Source: Bacteroidota bacterium (lineage in GTDB: Bacteria; Bacteroidota; Bacteroidia; Bacteroidales; B39-G9). Taken from it: a stretch of 64,000 nt of DNA. The stretch lies in the NCBI GenBank assembly GCA_015222055.1, contig JADFUR010000060.1:1-64000 (forward strand). Reading direction: 5' to 3'. Positions 9,720 to 62,142 of this stretch are shown piece after piece; position 1 is the first letter of the stretch; the number at the start of each line of letters is the position of its first letter. Position numbers and translations under genes: made by a program. The notes under the pieces are model-generated. The model did not search any database. It was not told the DNA's origin and saw nothing but the letters and a program-made list of their open reading frames with translations.

Positions 9720-10316
9720 TTATTCGCCAATAACAACTTTTGGGAAACGAATAATTTTGTCGTTTAAGTAATATCCTTTATTAATAACATCAACAACTTT
9801 ACCTTTTAATTTTTTTTCGGGTGCAGGTATTTTTGTTACGGCTTCGTGAAGGTCCGTGTCAAAATCTTTATTTATGGCATCAATTTCTTTTACTCCGCAA
9901 GATTTTAGATAATCAACAAGCTTATTATAGATAATATTTACTCCTTCTTTTACTGCTGCTACATCTTCTGAATTTTCCATTGAACCAAGAGCTCTTTCAA
10001 AATCGTCAACTACTGGCAATATATTTATTATTATATCTTCTCCTGCAGATTTAATAATATCAATTCTTTCTTTTAAAGTTCTTTTTCTGTAGTTGTCGAA
10101 TTCAGCTGCAAGACGAATATATTTGTCATTGGCAATTTCATATTTTTCTAATAGTTCTTGCTTTTCGTCTTTTTTTACAACTTTTATTTTTGGCTCTTTT
10201 TTAACAGATTTTTTTTTGGTGGTTTTTTTTGAATCTGTGTCAGGTGATTTTGTACTTGTCTTTTTTGCAGTCGCCTTTGTTTCCGGTTCTTGCTTAGTTG
10301 TCTCTTTTTTTGCCAT
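9720..10316 (-). CDS. grpE: Nucleotide exchange factor GrpE
   Basis: 198 residues. The first ~55 are Lys/Thr-rich and probably disordered; then a long coiled-coil (from ~57, with AAEFDNYRKRTLKER) and the beta-wing domain (VDDFERALG, GVKEIDAINKDFDTDLHEAV, KGYYLNDKIIRFPKVVIGE). Promotes ADP release from DnaK. Placed upstream of dnaJ, probably as one stress-related unit. Confidence 0.97.
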   Translation of the reverse strand: MAKKETTKQEPETKATAKKTSTKSPDTDSKKTTKKKSVKKEPKIKVVKKDEKQELLEKYEIANDKYIRLAAEFDNYRKRTLKERIDIIKSAGEDIIINILPVVDDFERALGSMENSEDVAAVKEGVNIIYNKLVDYLKSCGVKEIDAINKDFDTDLHEAVTKIPAPEKKLKGKVVDVINKGYYLNDKIIRFPKVVIGE

Positions 10317-10411
10317 TTTATTTATTAATAAATTATTTTTTTCTTATTGAATATGCAATTAGAAATTACACACTCTTTCATTTCAAATTGTTTGCCAATA
10401 TATATTTTCAC

Positions 10412-10454
10412 GACAAATTGACATTTTTTTTTGTTCTTTTGATAAAATGACAAA
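10412..10454 (-). promoter_or_regulatory. Candidate regulatory repeats upstream of grpE
   Basis: Read on the minus strand, two related 12-base words lie upstream of grpE: TGTCAATTTGTC (10412-10423) and TGTCATTTTATC (about 10441-10452). No CIRCE element is present. A role in stress control is only inferred from the position. Confidence 0.22.
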
Positions 10455-10481
10455 AGGCAGAAAAAAATCCTGCCTTTTTTG
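10452..10481 (-). terminator. Intrinsic terminator after the TlpA-like gene
   Basis: AAAAGGCAG (10452-10460) and CTGCCTTTT (about 10470-10478) form 9-bp arms around a short A-rich loop, 26 bp beyond the thioredoxin-like stop and before grpE. It reads in either direction; the flanking T-run is short on the minus strand. Confidence 0.7.
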
Positions 10482-10506
10482 GTTAATAAATAGTTGTTCG
10501 TAAAGC

Positions 10507-11073
10507 TTAGTTTTTCACTAAGTAATTTAAAACCTCATGAAGTCGTTGACCTCTAAGATTTTTGGCAATAATTATTCCGTCTCCATTAATTAAAAAATTA
10601 GAAGGGATAGATCTTATGCCATAAATTTGTCCGGGTTTTGAATGCCATCCTCCTAAATCACTAACATGGTTTTTCCAAAACAGATTATCTGTTTTTATAG
10701 CATTAGTCCATGCAGACTTGTTTTTATCTAAAGATACACTGTAAACAGTAAACCCTTTACCCTGTTTAAAATTTTTATCTTGAAATTTAAGATAGGCATT
10801 AACAACATTAGGATTTTCCGTACGACAAGGTCTGCACCACGAAGCCCAAAAATCAATAAGTACTAATTGTCCTTTTAAGGACGATAAAGCAATTATTTTT
10901 CCATCGGGGGATTGAAATTTTAATTCAGGAGCTTTATTTCCAACATTAAGACCCACAATAGGTTTTTGTTTGTTATTTTCTACGGAATTTTTAGTAAAAT
11001 TTTTTGCATTAATAATACTAAAAGCACTTATAACAAGGGAAATAGTTATTAAATATATTTTAATTTTATTCAT
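10507..11073 (-). CDS. TlpA-like thioredoxin-fold protein, exported
   Basis: 188 residues. N-terminal hydrophobic segment (IYLITISLVISAFSII, ~5-20), so probably a signal peptide or membrane anchor. The thioredoxin/TlpA-ResA domain (~45-188) has the redox motif WASWCRPC with Cys80 and Cys83, then YSVSLDKNKSAW and the cis-proline region GIRSIPSNFLING. Expected periplasmic thiol-disulfide reductase, for example in cytochrome or envelope protein maturation. Substrate unknown. Single gene with its own terminator. Confidence 0.9.
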   Translation of the reverse strand: MNKIKIYLITISLVISAFSIINAKNFTKNSVENNKQKPIVGLNVGNKAPELKFQSPDGKIIALSSLKGQLVLIDFWASWCRPCRTENPNVVNAYLKFQDKNFKQGKGFTVYSVSLDKNKSAWTNAIKTDNLFWKNHVSDLGGWHSKPGQIYGIRSIPSNFLINGDGIIIAKNLRGQRLHEVLNYLVKN

Positions 11074-11175
11074 AGTTATACTTTTACATATTTATATACA
11101 AATAAATGTATTTTGTGTCTAAAATGCAAGTTTATAATAAAATAATTCAAAAATTTTAAATTGTTGAAACAAATT

Positions 11176-12486
11176 TTAATCTTCAATTCGTTCAATTTTG
11201 GCACCAATATTTCTTAATCGTTCATCAATAAATTGATAACCACGATCAATTTGTTCAATATTGTAAATTGTGCTAACTCCTTTAGCTGACATTGCTGCTA
11301 TTAGAAGAGCAACACCTGCTCTAATATCTGGAGAAACTAAAGTTGCCCCTTTTAAATAGTGTTGTTTGTTTAAACCGATAACAGTTGCTCTATGCGGGTC
11401 GCATAATATAATTTGTGCACCCATATCAATAAGTTTATCAACAAAGAAAAGGCGACTTTCAAACATTTTTTGATGAATTAAAACACTGCCTTTTGCCTGA
11501 GTAGCAACTACAAGAAGCACACTCAAAAGGTCGGGAGTTAATCCTGGCCAAGGAGCGTCGTCAATTGTCATTATTGAACCGTCAATAAATGTTTCAATTT
11601 CATAATTATCTTGAGAAGGGATAAAAATATCATCGTTAATTTTTTCAAATTTTATTCCAAGACGTTTAAAAGCTTGTGGAATTATTCCGAGGTTTTCGTA
11701 TGATACATTTTTAATAGTAATTTCAGAAGAGGTCATTGCAGCTAATCCAATGAAGCTACCAATTTCAATCATATCAGGCAAAACGGAATGTTCGCATCCT
11801 GTAAGATTCTCAACGCCCTCAATAGTTAATAGGTTCGACGAGATGCCTGAAATTTTAGCACCCATTTTGTTAAGCATTTTACACAGTTGCTGTACATATG
11901 GTTCGCAAGCAGCGTTATATATTTGAGTTGTTCCTTTTGCCAGAACAGCAGCCATAATAATATTTGCAGTTCCTGTAACAGATGCTTCTTCAAGTAACAT
12001 AAAGGTTCCTCGGAGATTGTCTGCTTTTATTTTATAAAATTTATTATTTGGGTCGTATTCAAATTTAGCTCCAAGCTTTTGAAAACCCAAAAAGTGAGTG
12101 TCTAATCGGCGTCTGCCAATTTTATCGCCTCCCGGTTTTGGAATATAGGCTTTTCCAAAACGTGATATTAATGGACCTACAGTCATTACAGAACCTCGCA
12201 GGGATGAACTTTTTTTTACATATTCGTCTGAATGTAGATAGTTGAGATTAATATTTTTGGCTTGAAAAACATAATCTGTGTTGTTTAATTTAGAAACTGA
12301 TACACCTAATCCAATCAATAATTCAATTAATCTATTTACATCTCTAATATCAGGAATGTTTTTTATTGTAATTTTTTCAGGAGTTAATAATGTAGCACAA
12401 ATAATTTGAAGGGCTTCATTTTTAGCTCCTTGGGGAGTTATCTCCCCTTTTAATTTATGACCGCCTTCAACTCGAAAAATACTCAT
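11176..12486 (-). CDS. murA: UDP-N-acetylglucosamine 1-carboxyvinyltransferase
   Basis: 436 residues, full length. Catalyses the first committed step of peptidoglycan synthesis, adding enolpyruvate from PEP to UDP-GlcNAc. Family blocks: QGAKNEALQIICA, SSLRGSVMTVGPLISRFG, the active-site loop PKPGGDKIGRRRLDTH, TNIIMAAVLAKG and SPDIRAGVALLIAAM. The loop residue that is Cys115 in E. coli MurA is Asp here (Asp121). This natural variant is known in other bacteria and makes MurA insensitive to fosfomycin. A terminator separates it from the DUF4290 gene upstream. Confidence 0.97.
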   Translation of the reverse strand: MSIFRVEGGHKLKGEITPQGAKNEALQIICATLLTPEKITIKNIPDIRDVNRLIELLIGLGVSVSKLNNTDYVFQAKNINLNYLHSDEYVKKSSSLRGSVMTVGPLISRFGKAYIPKPGGDKIGRRRLDTHFLGFQKLGAKFEYDPNNKFYKIKADNLRGTFMLLEEASVTGTANIIMAAVLAKGTTQIYNAACEPYVQQLCKMLNKMGAKISGISSNLLTIEGVENLTGCEHSVLPDMIEIGSFIGLAAMTSSEITIKNVSYENLGIIPQAFKRLGIKFEKINDDIFIPSQDNYEIETFIDGSIMTIDDAPWPGLTPDLLSVLLVVATQAKGSVLIHQKMFESRLFFVDKLIDMGAQIILCDPHRATVIGLNKQHYLKGATLVSPDIRAGVALLIAAMSAKGVSTIYNIEQIDRGYQFIDERLRNIGAKIERIED

Positions 12487-53536: not shown

Positions 53537-54097
53537 TCACTCATGAAAAACAATTGCTTCATAAATATAAATATCAGCATCTTTCCATCCGTCCCAACCA
53601 ATACCGGCTTTGTCACGAGCACAATGTCCTAAAAATTCTTTTTTAGTCCAGTTAGTTTCGTTAGCTACTTGAGGCAAAAAAGTGCCTGAAGAGTTTTCTT
53701 TTTTGATATAAATTCCATCTCTACCTAAATTAATTTCGTCAATGGAATTAATTTTTTTCATAGGACTTAAAACGGAAATTTCAATTCTTAAATTATCAAT
53801 TTCGTTTGGGCTGATTTTGTTAAAACGATAGTCTTGTGTAGATGAAGCAATAGTCATTTGTTGCACAATTTTGTGTAGAGGACTACTAGGATTAAACCGC
53901 CCTATACACCCTCTTAAAACTCCTCTTTGGGTTAGCGTAACGAAAGCTCCGCAGTTGCTCAATAGTATTTCTGAAAAATTTGAAATGTCAATATCAGGAA
54001 TATTGTTTTCATTTATATATTGTTCAATAGTTATTCGAGCAATATGCAACAAGTCTTTTTTATCTTTTTCGCTAAGTTTGAATTTATTATTTTCCAT
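53537..54097 (-). CDS. AMMECR1 domain protein (AmmeMemoRadiSam system A-like)
   Basis: 186 residues from ATG at 54095-54097; the longer frame to 54157 runs into a palindromic repeat and is unlikely to be coding. AMMECR1 hallmarks: CGAFVTLTQRGVLRGCIGRF (~50-70), SSTQDYRFNKIS, LRIEISVLSPM, FLPQVANETNWTKKEFLGH. Function unknown; often encoded with Memo-like and radical-SAM genes, which are absent here. Confidence 0.88.
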   Translation of the reverse strand: MENNKFKLSEKDKKDLLHIARITIEQYINENNIPDIDISNFSEILLSNCGAFVTLTQRGVLRGCIGRFNPSSPLHKIVQQMTIASSTQDYRFNKISPNEIDNLRIEISVLSPMKKINSIDEINLGRDGIYIKKENSSGTFLPQVANETNWTKKEFLGHCARDKAGIGWDGWKDADIYIYEAIVFHE

Positions 54098-54140
54098 TTT
54101 TTTTGGTCTTGTGAGCCAATTATTATTGGAACAACCCCTG

Positions 54141-54214
54141 CTCTTTCGGATTTGCAATCCGAAAGCTTATAAACCCAATCAACACAGAATTTTCAGATTG
54201 CAAATTCGAAAGAG
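54141..54214. repeat. Palindromic repeat pair upstream of the AMMECR1 gene
   Basis: CTTTCGGATT (54143-54152) and AATCCGAAAG (54156-54165) form a perfect 10-bp stem. A near inverse copy, GATTGCAAATTCGAAAGAG (54196-54214), pairs with 54141-54159 (18 of 19). This gives alternative nested hairpins between the AMMECR1 gene and the TPR operon end. Confidence 0.65.
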
Positions 54215-54242: not shown

Positions 54243-54866
54243 TTATTTTATAAGAGACAATCCTTCAAGAGCTGATTTATCATCTTGTGAGATTAGCAAC
54301 ACTTTATTAAATAAAATTTTTGCTTCTCTCATTTTACCTGTTTGAAAATTTGCCCAGGCATACATAAGTAAACCATCGTAGTTGAATGGATATAGATTTA
54401 CAACTTTTTTAAAATATTTTAGAGATTTTGCATAATCTTTTCTGCCATAATAAATAAGTCCTAATCTGTAATTAGCTGTTGTGTTATTTGGAGAATTAGT
54501 TATTATTTGCTCATATAAATTTTTTACTTCATCCCATTTTCCCAATGCTGCTTTTGGTAATACTAATCCAAATTTTGCTTCTTCAGAGTATGGCATTAGT
54601 TTAATTGCACGGTTGTAGTAAACAGAAGATTCTGCAAAATTTCCTGTTTGATAGTTTAACCATCCTAAACGCAGGTTAATTTCATAAGAGTTTTCATCGT
54701 AAATATTTTTTATGGTTTTTATAGAATTAGTGTAATCGCCTTTTTTTTCCATGTTAAGGCTCTTGTTAAAATTTGTTTTAAGCAAGTCGAAATTTTGAGC
54801 AAAAAGACCTAAGCTCATAAGACAAAAAACAAATGTAATTGCTAAAGATTTTTTTAAAAGTACCAT
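54243..54866 (-). CDS. Secreted TPR protein, last gene of the PqqD/ATP-grasp operon
   Basis: 207 residues. Signal peptide ~1-24 (LAITFVFCLMSLGLFAQ). About five tetratricopeptide repeats (LRLGWLNYQTGNFAESSVYY, YRLGLIYYGRKDYAKSLKYF, LMYAWANFQTGKMREAKILF). Probably periplasmic scaffold or partner of the outer-membrane protein whose gene it overlaps by 13 bp. No enzyme motif. Confidence 0.85.
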   Translation of the reverse strand: MVLLKKSLAITFVFCLMSLGLFAQNFDLLKTNFNKSLNMEKKGDYTNSIKTIKNIYDENSYEINLRLGWLNYQTGNFAESSVYYNRAIKLMPYSEEAKFGLVLPKAALGKWDEVKNLYEQIITNSPNNTTANYRLGLIYYGRKDYAKSLKYFKKVVNLYPFNYDGLLMYAWANFQTGKMREAKILFNKVLLISQDDKSALEGLSLIK

Positions 54867-56164
54867 TTTATTCCTCCTGTTATTGAATTATTAATATATT
54901 TAATATCATTGTATTCTCCATTAATTGAATACGTATTTGTGTAAGATGATTGTTGAAAAATTGCGAATATTTGCATCTTACCTTTATTTAAAGAAAGATA
55001 GAAAGTTGATCCAAAAATGTTGTTCAATTTGTCAATAGAATTATTAATTACAAGAGCATCATTGTAAATGAAATTATATATTCCATTTCCCACAAAAATA
55101 AAAGGTTCTATTGTTAATGATTTAAAAGGGACAAATCCCAAGTTCCCTTTTATTATATATTTGGAGGTGTTAACATTATCTTTTGTTGCATATTGATAAA
55201 ACCCTTGAGTACCAAAGTAAAATTTTGTATTGGCAAAAGGATAGTAATATAATGATAATGAAGGTTGAATTTGAGTGCCTGAATTTAGGTTTGACAAAGA
55301 TGCGGACAGTTTTATATCAAAAAGGGAAATGTTTTTTGAAAAAGCTCCAAAGAAAACCAGATTGTTTGTTTTTAAGTTATATAGCAAATTAACATTTTTT
55401 CCGCCATGGTTTGATGAAATTATGTCTTCAGCCTTAATATTTGTATTAACAGAATGCAACCCCAGGCTTAAGTTACTACCTTTTGCTACATGCCAATTAC
55501 AATTAATATAGTATTGAAACATATTAACATTTTCAGTAAATTCATCTACGCTGTAGTTTTGTGAGTAAATATCATTAGTGGCATTTATGTAACTAAAAGC
55601 GTGAAAAACTTTGAGTTTGTTTTTAGACAAATGAGTTAGATTAACACTAAAATAGTTAAACGAGTTTGATACTGTCTGTTCAAGATTATCTATAATTTTT
55701 AAATCTGCCTTATAATTCTCATAAAGATTTGTTTTATATTCTGTTCCAATTCCATTGACAAATGAATTTTCGTTATAAAATTTTAATTTTTGTTTAAGAT
55801 TAGGTGTAAAACTATGAGAAAGAATTCGAGCATCTTCTGTTCTTCCGGAAAACACATATGCATAATATAAATATTCTAATGCAATATTATCGTTCGGCGT
55901 TTCACTCACAACTTTTTCGAAGAAAGGTATTGACTTGCGATAATTTTTTAACTCATAATAAGCAATACCCATACGATATTGTAGATAATAGAAATCGACA
56001 TTGCTTTTTAATGAATTATTGCCATATTTTATAAGTTCTTTCCAATTATTTTGTTGATATAAGAGAAAAGATTTATTGTTGACACTAGTATAATTATATA
56101 TTTCCTGTGATTTCACAGTGCTAATAAATGTTACTAATAAAAGAGAAAAAATTAATTTATACAT
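54854..56164 (-). CDS. TPR plus outer-membrane beta-barrel protein
   Basis: 436 residues. Signal peptide ~1-19. Residues ~35-130 carry TPR-like helices (YYLQYRMGIAYYELKNYRKS, LEYLYYAYVFSGRTEDAR). From ~150 to the end the sequence alternates in strands and ends GGIKWYF with a terminal Phe, as in outer-membrane barrels (about a dozen strands). It resembles the TPR-YaiO-like arrangement of Bacteroidota, but I cannot confirm the family. Overlaps both neighbouring genes by 13 bp, so it is expressed with the M23 fusion upstream and TPR gene downstream. Confidence 0.7.
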   Translation of the reverse strand: MYKLIFSLLLVTFISTVKSQEIYNYTSVNNKSFLLYQQNNWKELIKYGNNSLKSNVDFYYLQYRMGIAYYELKNYRKSIPFFEKVVSETPNDNIALEYLYYAYVFSGRTEDARILSHSFTPNLKQKLKFYNENSFVNGIGTEYKTNLYENYKADLKIIDNLEQTVSNSFNYFSVNLTHLSKNKLKVFHAFSYINATNDIYSQNYSVDEFTENVNMFQYYINCNWHVAKGSNLSLGLHSVNTNIKAEDIISSNHGGKNVNLLYNLKTNNLVFFGAFSKNISLFDIKLSASLSNLNSGTQIQPSLSLYYYPFANTKFYFGTQGFYQYATKDNVNTSKYIIKGNLGFVPFKSLTIEPFIFVGNGIYNFIYNDALVINNSIDKLNNIFGSTFYLSLNKGKMQIFAIFQQSSYTNTYSINGEYNDIKYINNSITGGIKWYF

Positions 56165-58362
56165 GTTGCTTTTATTTGAGTTTTATCAAACGAAATATTT
56201 AATTCATTTACCCCTTTGTCGTTTATGCAAATATCAGATGAAAATGTTTTTTTTGTTTTATTAAATATTTTAAGTTCGGTTTTGGCTACTAATTTTATTT
56301 TTGAAGGTGAAAAATCATCATCAATAGAAATGTAATTCATTGAAAAATGAGCATTGAGAAATATTTTAAATGGTGCAATAAAATCTTGTAAAAACATATT
56401 CTTCTTATTGAAAATTATATTTGGAGGAATACGGTCGTTTACAGAAAGTCCTTCGTAAAAGCCAAGTTCTACCTTATAAAGCGATAAGAAAAAATAATAT
56501 AAAAATGATTTTTTATCACCCTCAAAATAAGTGAAATAATGCAATAGTCCATCATTTTTTAAATAAGCAAATGAACCAGATTTTTTGCAATTTATGTAAG
56601 TATTGTTGTAGATGTCGGTTTCCACATCCCAAGATATAGTTTCTTTTTTTGTTTTTCCATCTTTAGTTATCGAAACAACATTAAATTTTATAGTTTGTCC
56701 GGGTATAAAATGCAAGGCGTTTTTTAACAGACTATTTGTTTGAATATTACTAATAGTCTGATTTTTTTCGGGTTTGCTAAAAGATTTCAGTTTGTAACCG
56801 GAATTGTTTTTTTGCATATAATGTGCAATTGAATAATCAATTGTTTGTGATCCAATAAAAGGTGTTGCCTGAAGTTGAAAATGTAGGTGTGGATAAGGCG
56901 ACCTGCCTGAATTGCCACACAAAGCCAATGTTTGTCCTTTTTTCACAAGTTCGCCTTTTTTTACTTTAAATGTTTCAGGTTTAATATGGCTTAACTGAGA
57001 ATACAGATATTCAGTGTGTTTAATCGTAAGGCTATTCCCCCAGTTATTAAGAGTATTTATGTCTCCTATTAAATTATCGTCAATGCCATCAATAATTTCA
57101 ACAATTATGCCATCTGCAGGTGAAATAACCGGTTTTTCATAGCAATAGTAATCTTTGCAATAATCGCCTTTAGATTGATATTGATTGCCATTATCATCGT
57201 TAATAGTTAAGTCCCAAGCATGTTGCCATTCGTTTTTATGAGTATATTCTCCTTTGTGCCCTTGAGAAATTGTCCAATCGCCTAATACGGGTAAATAAAC
57301 AGGATAATAAAAAATATCAGAAAATCTAAATAAATTATTTTTGTATGAGTAAAGATTTTTTTCAGGAGAATTGAATTGGATTAATGGTTCAACCAGTTCT
57401 TTACCTTTTTGCATCCTTAATTTTAGAGTATATAAAAATATAAGTGAAATTACATTAAAAGGTAAAGAGTAAATAGGTAATTGATAATTAATAAATATTT
57501 TATTAAACCCAAAAGTTATAAGTACTGTTACAGGAAGTAGCAAAACAACCCAAAAATAAGTTGACTTTGATGGAATAAGGAAAAATCCTCCAATAGCAAT
57601 TGCTGTTAAAATGTAGTTAAAGCCTATAAATGTATAGCTTAATTCATTAAAATCAACACCTATGAAATTATAAAACAAGTATGCTGTATAGAATCCCAAA
57701 AAAGATAATGTAAATGCTATTCTTGAACTTAGGAGCAAGCCTATTGATATTAAAATTCCTGCAAGAACATTAAATTGGAAAATTATTGCAGCTAATGACA
57801 AAAAATATATTTTTAAAGATTGAAAAATTGGAATTGCCTCAATAAAATTATAAATATCTACAAGGTTTTGTCCGCCAAGCGAAAATAAGTCATTAAAGAG
57901 GTAAATTCCACGTTGACTTAAGCCCAATAATTCTAATTGACCAGCCGAGAGATTTATCATCCATGCTACTAATAAAAACGGAATACTTAAAAATGGCAAC
58001 GAATATTTATATAAGAATCCTTCAAAAGCAATAGTGATAAATAATGTTAAAATTGACAAGAAAAAAATAATTATCAAAACGTGCAGACCGGGTTCAAATG
58101 TTATTCCGGCAGCTAAGCCTACTAATAATGAGTTAAACCCATATAAGCCTGTTTCTATGTTAAATTTACTGAAATTTATAAGGTTGGCTGAAATATTAGT
58201 AATAATAACAGCAACAAGCCCACCAATTCCTGTCCAAAAGTCAAAAAAGCTAACAATCAATAATATAATTCCCAATATTTTATTCTTTGTGAAAAAAATT
58301 TGAGCGTAGCTATTAATTACTGATTTATAATAGTTTTTCAAGTTTGTTGAGGAAATATTCAT
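56152..58362 (-). CDS. Urea-transporter fold fused to M23 peptidase domain
   Basis: 736 residues. Residues ~25-315 are a UT-type channel with its internal repeat: GLYGFNSLLVGLAAG (72-86) and FIGFNYILTAIAIGG (245-259), plus AIIFQFNVLAGILISIGLLL. Residues ~355-520 are an M23-like zinc peptidase domain: HAWDL (His381, Asp384), GNSLTIKH, QLSHI (His459), GELVKKGQTLALCGNSG and PHLHFQLQ (His492, His494). The first motif is HxxD, not the usual HxxxD, so zinc binding may be altered. Residues ~540-736 are beta-rich and unrecognised. The peptidase would face the periplasm. 9 bp after the PLP enzyme gene. Confidence 0.85.
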   Translation of the reverse strand: MNISSTNLKNYYKSVINSYAQIFFTKNKILGIILLIVSFFDFWTGIGGLVAVIITNISANLINFSKFNIETGLYGFNSLLVGLAAGITFEPGLHVLIIIFFLSILTLFITIAFEGFLYKYSLPFLSIPFLLVAWMINLSAGQLELLGLSQRGIYLFNDLFSLGGQNLVDIYNFIEAIPIFQSLKIYFLSLAAIIFQFNVLAGILISIGLLLSSRIAFTLSFLGFYTAYLFYNFIGVDFNELSYTFIGFNYILTAIAIGGFFLIPSKSTYFWVVLLLPVTVLITFGFNKIFINYQLPIYSLPFNVISLIFLYTLKLRMQKGKELVEPLIQFNSPEKNLYSYKNNLFRFSDIFYYPVYLPVLGDWTISQGHKGEYTHKNEWQHAWDLTINDDNGNQYQSKGDYCKDYYCYEKPVISPADGIIVEIIDGIDDNLIGDINTLNNWGNSLTIKHTEYLYSQLSHIKPETFKVKKGELVKKGQTLALCGNSGRSPYPHLHFQLQATPFIGSQTIDYSIAHYMQKNNSGYKLKSFSKPEKNQTISNIQTNSLLKNALHFIPGQTIKFNVVSITKDGKTKKETISWDVETDIYNNTYINCKKSGSFAYLKNDGLLHYFTYFEGDKKSFLYYFFLSLYKVELGFYEGLSVNDRIPPNIIFNKKNMFLQDFIAPFKIFLNAHFSMNYISIDDDFSPSKIKLVAKTELKIFNKTKKTFSSDICINDKGVNELNISFDKTQIKATCIN

Positions 58363-58371
58363 TAAAAAAAA

Positions 58372-59721
58372 TTATTTTTTTAAATATTTAGGCGTAATTT
58401 CAAGGTTTTCAAAAACTGAATTAGTCTCATTTTTTCTAATTATATGAGCTTTGCTTTCAGTATCTATTAATATAATTTTCGGTCGCAAAGTTATAAACTG
58501 CATCCATTGTGTCATATTGTATGCACCAATACGTTTAATAACAACATTGTCGCCTTTTTGCAAAATCGGGAATTGAATGGCTTGTCTAATAACATCAATA
58601 TTCATACATAAAGGACCATAAATGGTAGTGTCTTCAGTTTGGGTTGAGCACTGTTGAGCAGGAAATATTTCATGCTCATACCAAAATGAAGTAAATAACA
58701 TATTAACTCCAATATCAATAATTGTTGCACGACGACCACTTGCAAGCCGTTTGTTTGCCAATACTGTTCCAAGAATATATCCTGCATCATCAATAAGAGC
58801 TCTGCCAGTTTCCAAAATTAAAGTTGGAAGATTTTCGGGAGATATTTGAGAATTTATAATAACATTTGTTATAGCATCTGCATAATCGTCAAAGGTAGGG
58901 CAGGTGTCGGTTCCTGGTAAATAAGCTCCCTTAAGAGTGTTTTTTGAAGCAAAACCACCCCCCAAATCAAGGTATTTTATTTTGTGTTTATATTTATGAT
59001 CAATTTCAAGAGCAAGGTCAATCAGTTTTTTTGTAGCAACTGAATAAGGTGAAGGGCTCATCATATATGTACCTATGTGACAATGAAGACCTACCAAATT
59101 TAATTTTTTGCTAATCATAATGCGATTAATCGCATTCCATGCTTCTCCATTTTCATAGTTAAAACCAAAACGATCCCATTGTGGGAAAATGCCAGTATCC
59201 ATATTTACTCTTATAGCTACTTTAGGTGTTTCGTCAATACTATCGGCTATTTCAATGAGCATATATAATTCATCGAAATGATCAATATGAATTAGTGATC
59301 CATTTTTGGAGGCTTTTATTAAATCCTCTTTGCTTTTATCCGGTCCGTTAAAAATTATGTGTTTTCCTTCTATGCCATTTTTTATAGCTTTTTCGTATTC
59401 AAAACCTGAAACTACTTCTGCCCACGATCCAAGTTGGTGAAATAATGAGCAAACAGCATTAAGATAATTTGTTTTATACGACCAGGCAAATTGAATTTTT
59501 GGATAGCGACTGGTGAAAGCTCTTTTAGAATTGTTATATGTTTCTGTAATAGTTTTTTCAGATAAAACAAATAAAGGTGACCCATAATCTTTTAAAAGGT
59601 CTTTTACAGAAACACCATCAATATAACTTATTGGTTTTGTATTAACATTCATGCCAAATTTATCGGGCATGCCTGCATTAACTTTATTTATGATTGGAGA
59701 TTCGTATCTTAATTTTTCCAT
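58372..59721 (-). CDS. Diaminopimelate-decarboxylase-fold PLP enzyme, altered motifs
   Basis: 449 residues, slightly longer than LysA. Alanine-racemase-type barrel plus beta domain. PLP lysine in AWSYKTNY (Lys83), GLHCHIGTYM (211-220), DLGGGF (252-257), Arg of ETGRAL (304-309; EPGR in LysA), GPLCMNID (369-376; GPxCESxD in LysA) and GAYNMTQWM (399-407). The Cys and Asp of the second monomer's site remain, but the Glu-Ser that read the substrate's far end are Met-Asn. I infer decarboxylation (or racemisation) of a substrate other than meso-diaminopimelate. It lies 13 bp after the ATP-grasp gene. Confidence 0.85.
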   Translation of the reverse strand: MEKLRYESPIINKVNAGMPDKFGMNVNTKPISYIDGVSVKDLLKDYGSPLFVLSEKTITETYNNSKRAFTSRYPKIQFAWSYKTNYLNAVCSLFHQLGSWAEVVSGFEYEKAIKNGIEGKHIIFNGPDKSKEDLIKASKNGSLIHIDHFDELYMLIEIADSIDETPKVAIRVNMDTGIFPQWDRFGFNYENGEAWNAINRIMISKKLNLVGLHCHIGTYMMSPSPYSVATKKLIDLALEIDHKYKHKIKYLDLGGGFASKNTLKGAYLPGTDTCPTFDDYADAITNVIINSQISPENLPTLILETGRALIDDAGYILGTVLANKRLASGRRATIIDIGVNMLFTSFWYEHEIFPAQQCSTQTEDTTIYGPLCMNIDVIRQAIQFPILQKGDNVVIKRIGAYNMTQWMQFITLRPKIILIDTESKAHIIRKNETNSVFENLEITPKYLKK

Positions 59722-59734
59722 AATTATTAGTTAA

Positions 59735-60781
59735 TTATAATTCACCGTTAATATTTAATTTTTCAAATTGAGAAATATTACCAATTAAATCATAGGAATA
59801 ACGTATAAACATAATTCCTGTTTTATATGTTTTGTATGGCTCAACATTAATGCCCATTGCTAAATTAACCAATGCTTCGGGTAAATTCTGACCGGCACCA
59901 TTAGCCAAATATACCCAAGCGGGAATTCTGGGATTAATCTCAATCATAAAATATTTATTATCTTCAGTTTTAATCATTTCAAGCTCCATGCCACCTCGCC
60001 AGCGTGTTTTTTTGATTAAATTTCGAGTTATTTCAAGCATCTTTTCATCGTCCAAAGTAATGCCGCCCCATGCTTTTCCTTTGTCTGTTATATATTGTTT
60101 CCGCATTGGAACAGCACCAATTGTATTTCCTTTGCCATCTCCCAAAGCAACCACATTAACTTCTGTTCCTTGTATATATTCTTGAATAATGACAGGAACT
60201 CCCCATTTAGAAGCAATTTTATTAAAATTGTATTGTAATTGCTCTAAGTTATAAACAATATATGCATCGTAGAATTTCCCTTTTACTAAAACAGGAAAAT
60301 CAAATTTATCGTTTATGTTCGAAAGATCTGATATGTTTGTGACAGCAATACTTTTAGGTACATTAATATTATATTTTTTGCCAAAAGAAGGTAGATTCGC
60401 TTTATGTCTCTCTTCAAATTGCTTAATACTTGGCAAAAAAGTTTTAATACCCATTTGTGCAAGTTTTTTTTCATTTTTCATGAATGTATAGAGCTCTGCA
60501 TCAAAATTTGGTATTATACAATCTAATTTTTCACAACTATGAATGTACTCTATTTTTTTTATAAAAGCCTCTCCACCTGCTGATGGATAAGGTATTTGAT
60601 ATATTTTATCGGCAGTATTGGGCATGTATATTCCTGGCTCTAAATTTTCATATGCTAAGCCAATAATTCTAACATCAAAAGTGTCAGATTCTCGCAATCC
60701 TCTTATCACAGGAACACCCGGACCAGGGTTATCAGTGTTATTTAAGCCTGTTACTGCAATAGTATATTTTGGTTTTACCAT
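59735..60781 (-). CDS. ATP-grasp ligase (carbamoyl-phosphate-synthase-like)
   Basis: 348 residues. N-terminal Rossmann-like domain (~1-115, GLNNTDNPGPGVPVIRGLRE). ATP-grasp core: lysine in FPVLVKGKFYDAY (~165), VIIQEYIQGTEVNVVALGDG, and the metal-binding pair in GGMELEMIKTEDNKYFMIEI followed by NPRIPAW. Enzymes of this type activate a carboxylate as an acyl phosphate and join it to an amine. Substrate unknown. Between the PqqD-like gene (18 bp) and the PLP enzyme gene (13 bp). Confidence 0.87.
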   Translation of the reverse strand: MVKPKYTIAVTGLNNTDNPGPGVPVIRGLRESDTFDVRIIGLAYENLEPGIYMPNTADKIYQIPYPSAGGEAFIKKIEYIHSCEKLDCIIPNFDAELYTFMKNEKKLAQMGIKTFLPSIKQFEERHKANLPSFGKKYNINVPKSIAVTNISDLSNINDKFDFPVLVKGKFYDAYIVYNLEQLQYNFNKIASKWGVPVIIQEYIQGTEVNVVALGDGKGNTIGAVPMRKQYITDKGKAWGGITLDDEKMLEITRNLIKKTRWRGGMELEMIKTEDNKYFMIEINPRIPAWVYLANGAGQNLPEALVNLAMGINVEPYKTYKTGIMFIRYSYDLIGNISQFEKLNINGEL

Positions 60782-60799
60782 TATTATAATTGTTTAATC

Positions 60800-61045
60800 T
60801 TATTCATTTTCAAGAAGATGATTGTTTTTTAACATTTGAATAAAATCGTAGTAATTTTTTTCAAATGTAATTGTATCCACATCATACTTTTCAAGGATGG
60901 CATCTGATATTTCCTCATATTTTTTTTCATTTTCGATAAATGATAAAATTTCAATGCCAATTGGATTTAAGGTAAAAGAATCTCCTGTTGATGGATTAAA
61001 AATAAACCCCGTTTCGCTTATTGCAATATTTTTTTTGAGTCTCAT
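60800..61045 (-). CDS. PqqD-like small protein (RRE fold)
   Basis: 81 residues, first gene of the six-gene operon. Pattern of the PqqD family: IAISETGFIFNPSTGDSFTL, NPIGIEILSFIENEKKYEEI, DVDTITFEKNYYDFIQML. PqqD proteins bind a leader peptide and hand it to a modifying enzyme (RiPP recognition element). No PqqA/C/E homologues or radical SAM gene is next to it, so it is not part of PQQ synthesis. A precursor peptide gene was not found in the flanks. Confidence 0.8.
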   Translation of the reverse strand: MRLKKNIAISETGFIFNPSTGDSFTLNPIGIEILSFIENEKKYEEISDAILEKYDVDTITFEKNYYDFIQMLKNNHLLENE

Positions 61046-61260: not shown

Positions 61261-61289
61261 TTGCTCAGTAAAAAAAATGTTTACATTTG
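61261..61289 (+). promoter_or_regulatory. Promoter of the cobalamin-riboswitch transcript
   Basis: TTG (61261-61263), 18-bp A-rich spacer, TACATTTG (61282-61289): a full match to the Bacteroidota promoter pattern, ending just before the riboswitch. Confidence 0.8.
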
Positions 61290-61291
61290 CC

Positions 61292-61520
61292 CTTTAATTG
61301 GTTTCATTAGAATTAAAAAGGAATATCGTTAGAATCGATAACAGTTCCCGCTGCTGTGATGGCTATTAAATGTTTTAACAGAATGTCACTCTTCATAATG
61401 AAGGGGAAGGCGTTAAAACAGGCCTAAGTCAGAAAACTTGCCAAATATATTGATTTTGTAGCCTGCGGAGAACGGGTAGCTAATCAGTTCGATATTTCCT
61501 TGGTTTTCCATTGTTATCGT
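61292..61520 (+). promoter_or_regulatory. Cobalamin (B12) riboswitch
   Basis: Conserved core in order: GATAACAGTTCCCGCTGCTG (about 61338-61357), GTCACT, GGGAAGGC (about 61405), and the closing CCTAAGTCAGAAAACTTGCC (about 61423-61442), which matches the family's GCCAGGAGACCTGCC-type end. Downstream, GTAGCCTGCGGAG…GGGTAGCTAATCAG (about 61459-61490) can fold as an expression platform. Adenosylcobalamin binding is expected to shut off the downstream genes. The exact ends are estimated. Confidence 0.9.
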
Positions 61521-61563: not shown

Positions 61564-62142
61564 ATGAAAAAATCAAAAAATCATTTACGATTTGGAATCC
61601 TTTCTCTATTAGTTTTACTGGTTGCTTTAAGCCGATTAATACCACATCCTCCTAACTTTGCTCCTATTGGAGCTATGGCATTATTTGGTGCAACTTATTT
61701 AAAGCAGAAGCATTTTGTTTTAATTATTCCTATAGCTTCCATGTGGCTTAGCGATTTAGCTCTTAATAATATTGTTTATGCCCAGTATTTCGATCACTTT
61801 GTTTGGTTTTACCCCGGATGTTATTGGACTTATGGAGCCTTTATCGTAATAGGATTTATTGGATTTGGATTACTCAAAAAAATCAAAATTCAAAATATTT
61901 TATTAGCCTCATGTTTGGCATCAATTAGCTTTTTTATTTTATCAAATTTTGGCGTTTGGTTATCAGGAATAATGTATCCAAAAACATTTACTGGTCTGAT
62001 GATGAGTTATACAGCAGGATTGCCATTTCTGAAAAATACATTTATGGGCGATTTGGTTTATTCCGGATTATTATTTGGAGTATTTGAATTAGCAAAGTAT
62101 CGTTTCCCAATATTACAATTTCAAACTAATCAATATAAATAA
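61564..62142 (+). CDS. DUF6580 family putative transport protein
   Basis: 192 residues. About six membrane segments (LLVLLVALSRLIPHPPNFAP, FVLIIPIASMWLSDLALNN, WTYGAFIVIGFIGFGL and three more). RLIPHPPNFAPIGAMALFGA matches DUF6580, a family related to the S components of ECF-type vitamin transporters and often placed under B12 riboswitches. Probable role in cobalamin or precursor uptake across the inner membrane. First gene after the riboswitch. Confidence 0.85.
   Translation: MKKSKNHLRFGILSLLVLLVALSRLIPHPPNFAPIGAMALFGATYLKQKHFVLIIPIASMWLSDLALNNIVYAQYFDHFVWFYPGCYWTYGAFIVIGFIGFGLLKKIKIQNILLASCLASISFFILSNFGVWLSGIMYPKTFTGLMMSYTAGLPFLKNTFMGDLVYSGLLFGVFELAKYRFPILQFQTNQYK

Follow-up and report, generated by a model that had tools for sequence, protein, structure and literature searches.

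We consider a run of six genes in the window (by which we mean the whole 64,000-nucleotide stretch of DNA that was analysed) encoding a PqqD-like protein, an ATP-grasp ligase, a PLP decarboxylase, a urea transporter (UT) channel fused to an M23 peptidase, an outer-membrane TPR/barrel protein and an exported TPR protein. This arrangement is conserved far beyond chance: many families, and other classes of the phylum too, have it with the genes running in one direction. The conserved order, the overlaps between genes and the co-occurrence of the families bear out the original prediction that the six genes form one system. As to what the system does, we put forward, tentatively and with a probability of roughly 0.4, that it is one envelope-spanning synthesis-and-export machine combining ligation, decarboxylation, release by the M23 domain, passage through the UT channel and transport by the TPR/barrel proteins. 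Slightly less probable still is a more specific form of this proposal: a previously undescribed machine in which the M23 domain, on the cytoplasmic face of the UT channel, frees the product of the RRE/ATP-grasp/decarboxylase enzymes for delivery to the TPR/barrel proteins, with the secreted compounds being a new class of amides or amines, possibly metal-related, made across Bacteroidota.

In the proposed machine, the ATP-grasp ligase would couple an amino acid to a second moiety in the cytoplasm, forming an amide (or carrier) bond, and the PqqD-like protein would present the substrate. The PLP decarboxylase would take off the alpha-carboxylate of the conjugated amino acid and leave an amine, in the manner of FigC/SbnH/BtrK-type enzymes. 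The M23 domain, sitting on the cytoplasmic face of the channel, would cut an amide bond and free a small product at the mouth of the channel. Through the UT-fold channel this product would enter the periplasm, and the TPR protein together with the TPR/14-strand barrel would carry it across the outer membrane. The proposal builds on computed properties (the gene set, its co-occurrence, the catalytic residues, the pocket type, the predicted topology and the barrel architecture), and from these we infer the order of the reactions, the release of the product by M23, the direction of transport and the presentation of the substrate by the PqqD-like protein.

If the proposal is true, about 40% of the sampled genomes of the order (61 of 149, counted by the ATP-grasp orthologue), and members of other classes too, possess a secreted small-molecule pathway that is new and whose architecture, in which a channel and a cytoplasmic M23 peptidase form one protein, is unusual. 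UT channels, M23 enzymes and FigC-type decarboxylases would then have wider roles than those known so far. The cultured hosts, which include Marinifilum, Labilibaculum, Ancylomarina, Algoriphagus and Lutibacter, make the pathway directly testable. In the open literature (subscription papers lie outside that search) we find no account of this gene set, in agreement with the earlier statement that no characterised pathway is known to contain it.

The conserved gene set

All six open reading frames lie on the reverse strand between 54243 and 61045, with the gene order running from 61045 down to 54243 (Table 1). The genes are spaced, in that order, by gaps of 18, 13 and 9 bp and then by two overlaps of 13 bp; the ORF list confirms the positions and spacing that were first read from the sequence, and Pfam supports each of the named domains apart from the barrel. 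The B12 locus that was noted as a divergent neighbour is also present, as a cobalamin riboswitch (61282-61459, + strand, 99.4 bits) upstream of a DUF6580 gene (61564-62142) and pointing away from the operon. Directly downstream, on the same strand as the operon, is a gene for an AMMECR1/AmmeMemoRadiSam A protein (53537-54157), which is not a recurrent neighbour among the homologous loci.

Table 1. The six genes of the operon, in gene order
Product	Position	Strand	Basis
PqqD-family / RRE-like small protein, 81 aa, first gene	60800..61045	-	Pfam PqqD
ATP-grasp ligase, 348 aa, PRK12767/PylC-like group	59735..60781	-	Pfam PF15632, PF02655
Alanine-racemase-fold PLP decarboxylase, 449 aa, FigC-like non-DAPDC pocket	58372..59721	-	PF02784, PF00278
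Putative UT channel + M23 zinc metallopeptidase + C-terminal beta domain, 736 aa	56152..58362	-	Pfam, model
Outer-membrane protein, 436 aa: signal peptide, seven TPR helices, 14-strand barrel (predicted)	54854..56164	-	AlphaFold2
Exported TPR protein, 207 aa; start codon 13 bp inside the barrel gene	54243..54866	-	TPR match

Does the same arrangement exist in other genomes? Within the order, a UT-M23 protein, almost complete or truncated at the end of a contig, is found in 62 of the 149 genomes, and it occurs together with the ATP-grasp orthologue in 60 (Fisher p 4e-38; the loci span dozens of families, and because the genomes are related, this and the other co-occurrence p-values overstate independence). 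The TPR orthologue tracks the core genes (58 of 61). Around the ATP-grasp gene, 39 loci give PqqD in all 39 and UT-M23 in 35, and in the remaining four the UT-M23 gene is found on a different contig of the same genome. The core genes are kept even where the operon is split over two contigs, as in genomes G053 and G090. Among the 49 named loci with enough sequence, the decarboxylase is present in 49, PqqD in 48, the UT domain, the M23 domain and the barrel in 46 each, and the TPR gene in 45, with all genes co-directional. In 21 of 30 loci the barrel and TPR genes share exactly 13 bp, and in 23 of 39 there is an overlap between the PqqD and ATP-grasp genes. Loci from the other classes of the phylum have genes one to four in the same order, with a TPR gene coming next in nearly all cases, while the barrel is at times shorter or relocated behind the TPR gene.

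Some minor variants and candidates were also collected. In seven of the loci L185-L192 a shorter barrel (about 270-310 aa) lies behind the TPR gene, and its profile is only weakly similar to that of the 14-strand barrel (hhalign E 1.6e-5). Genes inserted between the decarboxylase and UT genes of some loci (an acyltransferase-like gene; a histidine kinase with an aminotransferase) are not widely recurrent, and ispG, which is a recurrent downstream gene, was set aside as an ordinary housekeeping gene. A plasmid collection considered as a source of related clusters gave remote matches only. Among these, an Antarctobacter cluster taken for an ATP-grasp pair actually holds two decarboxylases and a 76-aa protein of no assigned family. 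Locus L067 carries a distant ATP-grasp paralogue (32% identity) in a different gene set that includes a TPR-like ORF, possibly a related system.

The ligase, the decarboxylase and their possible product

The first protein matches the Pfam PqqD model at 45.9 bits (cut-off 23.4, E 7e-12), and among solved structures its closest relative is the lasso-peptide RRE protein TbiB1 (E 2e-9). The ligase matches PF15632 at 41.1 bits and PF02655 at 30.1 bits. Catalytic residues are invariant in both enzymes: K167, R227, E268, E281 and N283 of the ligase across 25 homologues that share 54-73% identity with the protein of the window, and K83, H215, R307 and C372 of the decarboxylase, which are the PLP Lys, the His, the Arg and the catalytic Cys of alanine-racemase-fold decarboxylases, in all sequences compared. 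The amide-bond and decarboxylation chemistry that was placed on the cytoplasmic side is supported.

We turn to the specificity of the decarboxylase. Its best NCBIfam match is FslC/FigC at 237 bits (cut-off 500), followed by LysA (TIGR01048) at 222 bits (cut-off 298), and the solved structure nearest to it is that of N-citrylornithine decarboxylase (7kh2). At the specificity positions named for this clade in the FigC paper (PMC7857480), the pocket residues are T344, W347, M373, I375 and Q405. T344 (S in one divergent member) takes the place of the Arg on the specificity helix of DAPDC, and M373 that of the acidic residue beside the catalytic Cys, both as in FigC; three DAPDCs that were compared have R and E at these positions, which in DAPDC bind the distal end of DAP. 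The agreement with FigC rather than DAPDC extends to the most divergent orthologues. Diaminopimelate decarboxylase (LysA) is ruled out by these two residues, such that of the original assignment to a DapDC-fold enzyme the fold stands, with matches to the PLP-enzyme families, and a DapDC-like function does not. With neither an Asp/Glu beside the catalytic Cys nor an Arg on the specificity helix, the protein resembles the alanine-racemase-fold PLP enzymes of the FigC/FslC (rhizoferrin) clade, which includes SbnH, AcsE, MccE and BtrK. It differs from FigC in the residues that hold the citrate carboxylates: H357 and R387 are replaced by I375 and Q405 in all family members tested, and these neutral residues lead us to reject the N-citrylornithine decarboxylase FigC/FslC as well. 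An NIS synthetase and genes for siderophore uptake are absent here, which is another difference from FigC and its clade. W347 and Q405 are kept even in the most divergent orthologues. FigC decarboxylates an acylated amino acid, and the non-DAPDC members of the clade likely serve specialised metabolites (PMC7857480). Judging from a FigC-like pocket that is neutral at the citrate positions, the substrate of the decarboxylase should therefore be an amino-acid conjugate in which the distal part is something other than citrate, and probably other than a carboxylate. The window's genome contains a second decarboxylase of the same fold, 26% identical (G000:C102:70893-71945).

Two known systems can be compared with this set of proteins. 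One is the BtrJ-BtrI-BtrK logic of butirosin, in which BtrJ is the ATP-grasp member. There too an ATP-grasp ligase has as its partners a small protein, the carrier protein BtrI, and BtrK, a decarboxylase that belongs to this clade (BtrI and BtrK: PMC7857480), but the small protein of the present operon is PqqD-like rather than an acyl carrier, aminoglycoside genes are absent, and butirosin has no counterpart of the channel and barrel genes. The other comprises the graspetides and further RRE-dependent RiPPs, which share the ATP-grasp and PqqD/RRE proteins; a paper on graspetide diversity mentions no decarboxylase, urea or M23 partners (PMC8939145).

The last comparison leads to an alternative that we hold to be unlikely, a RiPP-like or carrier-peptide pathway. 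Here the PqqD/RRE protein would bind a leader or scaffold peptide encoded elsewhere, the ATP-grasp ligase would extend or amidate the peptide, the decarboxylase would produce a terminal amine, and the cytoplasmic M23 domain would cut the peptide before the product is exported. Such a pathway is consistent with the PqqD family and its match to TbiB1, with a peptidase predicted to be on the same side as the synthetases, and with MccE and BtrK, which show that the clade can act on peptide-nucleotide or carrier-bound substrates (PMC7857480). The module has, however, no radical SAM enzyme, cyclase or ABC exporter, and a search of the 1.2 kb upstream (133 loci) and the 1 kb downstream (102 loci) of the operon gave no small ORF that is conserved; the recurring small-ORF matches look like frames inside or antisense to ordinary coding genes. 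The conserved short peptide that had been hoped for near the PqqD gene is thus missing from these 133 upstream and 102 downstream regions, and the RiPP reading is left without its defining part, though a precursor may be encoded at a distance. That PqqD has no leader peptide next to it also weighs against the proposed export machine.

Further genes accompany the operon in part of the loci. In 39 of 105 loci the 5 kb upstream of the operon contain a gene for an AraC-type regulator whose start has the conserved motif NMxCxCC, and in 26 of those 39 this gene immediately precedes the operon on the same strand. The high-scoring form of the regulator (213 bits or more, a cut-off set at a gap in the scores after they were seen) occurs in 28 genomes, all 28 with the core genes (p 1.3e-12, with the limit given above). 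In addition, 13 operons have a ferritin-like DUF2202 gene upstream, and about 14 operons of the order have, beside or inside them, a gene for a T9SS-sorted secreted protein (about 265 aa); the family of this protein is present in 17 of the 149 genomes, each of which has the ATP-grasp gene (17 of 17, p 6e-8, same limit). None of the three is beside the window operon. We infer that the CxCC-type AraC regulator and, in some lineages, the T9SS-exported surface protein belong to the system. Secreted proteins near more distant loci are 15-22% identical to the T9SS-sorted protein, and their kinship with it is unsure. The AraC relatives of the window's own genome score at most 201 bits and lie on other contigs, the better one being of the common NMVCNRC type; they were not accepted as the regulator. 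In loci L206, L208 and L214 an unlinked AraC regulator is preceded by a Spy/CpxP-like exported protein.

The regulator and the ferritin-like gene bear on a somewhat more doubtful alternative, in which the operon serves as a metallophore or metal-stress system: the FigC-like enzyme would make a secreted chelator under the control of the CxCC-type AraC regulator, sometimes together with DUF2202. Restriction of the NMxCxCC subtype to genomes with the core genes (28 of 28) and the DUF2202 genes beside 13 operons are in line with this role, and FigC, SbnH and AcsE are siderophore decarboxylases (PMC7857480). Against it stand the neutral residues in place of the basic citrate-binding residues of FigC and the flanks, which hold no recurring receptor or NIS synthetase.

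The channel, the peptidase and the outer-membrane proteins

The fourth gene encodes, in one ORF, a UT domain (PF03253, 202.5 bits; residues 1-330), a Peptidase_M23 domain (47.0 bits; about 350-515) and, at the C-terminus, a beta domain that belongs to no assigned family (about 515-736). Residues 3-345 of the model superpose on human UT-B (VIA Z 36.1, 311 residues), and the full fold of the urea transporters is present when both dvUT and UT-B are considered (VIA Z 35-36 over about 310 residues); the difference from these proteins is the fusion to the M23 and beta domains. The urea transporter model TIGR03441 gives 138 bits against a cut-off of 275. In the pore, the residue aligned with Glu187 of dvUT (second repeat) is Ala in 91 of 106 homologues, and the motif Thr is mostly Ser. 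By its fold the UT domain is a putative channel, which may or may not conduct urea. The UT channels whose function is established are not known to pass anything but very small neutral solutes, and therefore the product would have to be tiny or the pore altered, which counts against the proposed machine.

On which side of the inner membrane is the peptidase? Both ends of UT-B are cytoplasmic. In the present family the predicted inner loops carry 10.2 K+R on average versus 2.6 for the outer loops, with the inner count exceeding the outer in 106 of 106 homologues. Because of the UT-B-like fold and this positive-inside bias, the M23 domain is most likely cytoplasmic according to the predicted topology, and its earlier placement in the periplasm is not supported. 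For a family defined by the motifs H(x)nD and HxH (PMC9662197), the zinc and catalytic residues H375, D384, H459, H492 and H494 are invariant in all 106 homologues, and in alignments with M23 enzymes of solved structure H459 falls on the active-site His; from these conserved residues the domain is judged to be catalytically complete. M23 enzymes are described in a review as peptidoglycan hydrolases (PMC9662197), and a cytoplasmic M23 domain would be unusual, another point against the proposed machine.

TPR matches are found in both the fifth and the sixth proteins, and the fifth has no Pfam barrel match. Its AlphaFold2 model (pLDDT 91.5) contains seven TPR helices and 14 strands, that is, a predicted periplasmic TPR domain and an outer-membrane barrel in one chain. 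Together with the signal peptides predicted in the barrel and TPR proteins, this model upholds the outer-membrane TPR/barrel pair of the original prediction. A barrel combined with TPR units is typically found in exporters such as BcsC/PgaA. Periplasmic TPR domains with an outer-membrane barrel are shared with BcsC, PgaA, AlgK/AlgE and Slam, and BcsC is among the structure matches of the barrel protein, but the barrel here is a 14-strand one, closest in fold to FadL, CymA and OmpG (VIA Z 18-21), and there is no polysaccharide synthase. The Slam TPR model gives 21 bits, below its cut-off of 35. Since 14-strand barrels of the FadL/CymA/OmpG kind include uptake channels, the direction of transport could, by analogy, be inward.

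Such a direction would be expected if the operon serves uptake and conversion, with the barrel and TPR proteins importing a small amide, the UT channel passing it to the cytoplasm, M23 hydrolysing it and the ligase and decarboxylase re-using the fragments. The nearest folds of the barrel agree with this, and UT channels are bidirectional, but the ATP-consuming ligase and the decarboxylase point to synthesis, the TPR-barrel combination points to exporters, and the neighbouring genes include no recurring catabolic enzymes or TonB/SusCD genes. We regard uptake as quite unlikely.

Cell-wall remodelling, in which a periplasmic M23 domain would act on peptidoglycan and the other proteins would make a wall modification, is improbable: the M23 fold does match the wall hydrolases DipM, Csd and ShyA, but a peptidoglycan hydrolase requires a periplasmic or secreted location whereas this domain is predicted to be cytoplasmic, and close M23 relatives, one of them itself a membrane protein, are found in haloarchaea, which have no murein, so that topology and relatives both argue against a wall hydrolase. 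In locus L199, the UT and M23 domains appear as two genes, a split that we judge to be a frameshift instead; the UT-M23 gene (9793-12047) is broken at an A6 run, by damage or sequencing error, in a genome that is otherwise near-complete.
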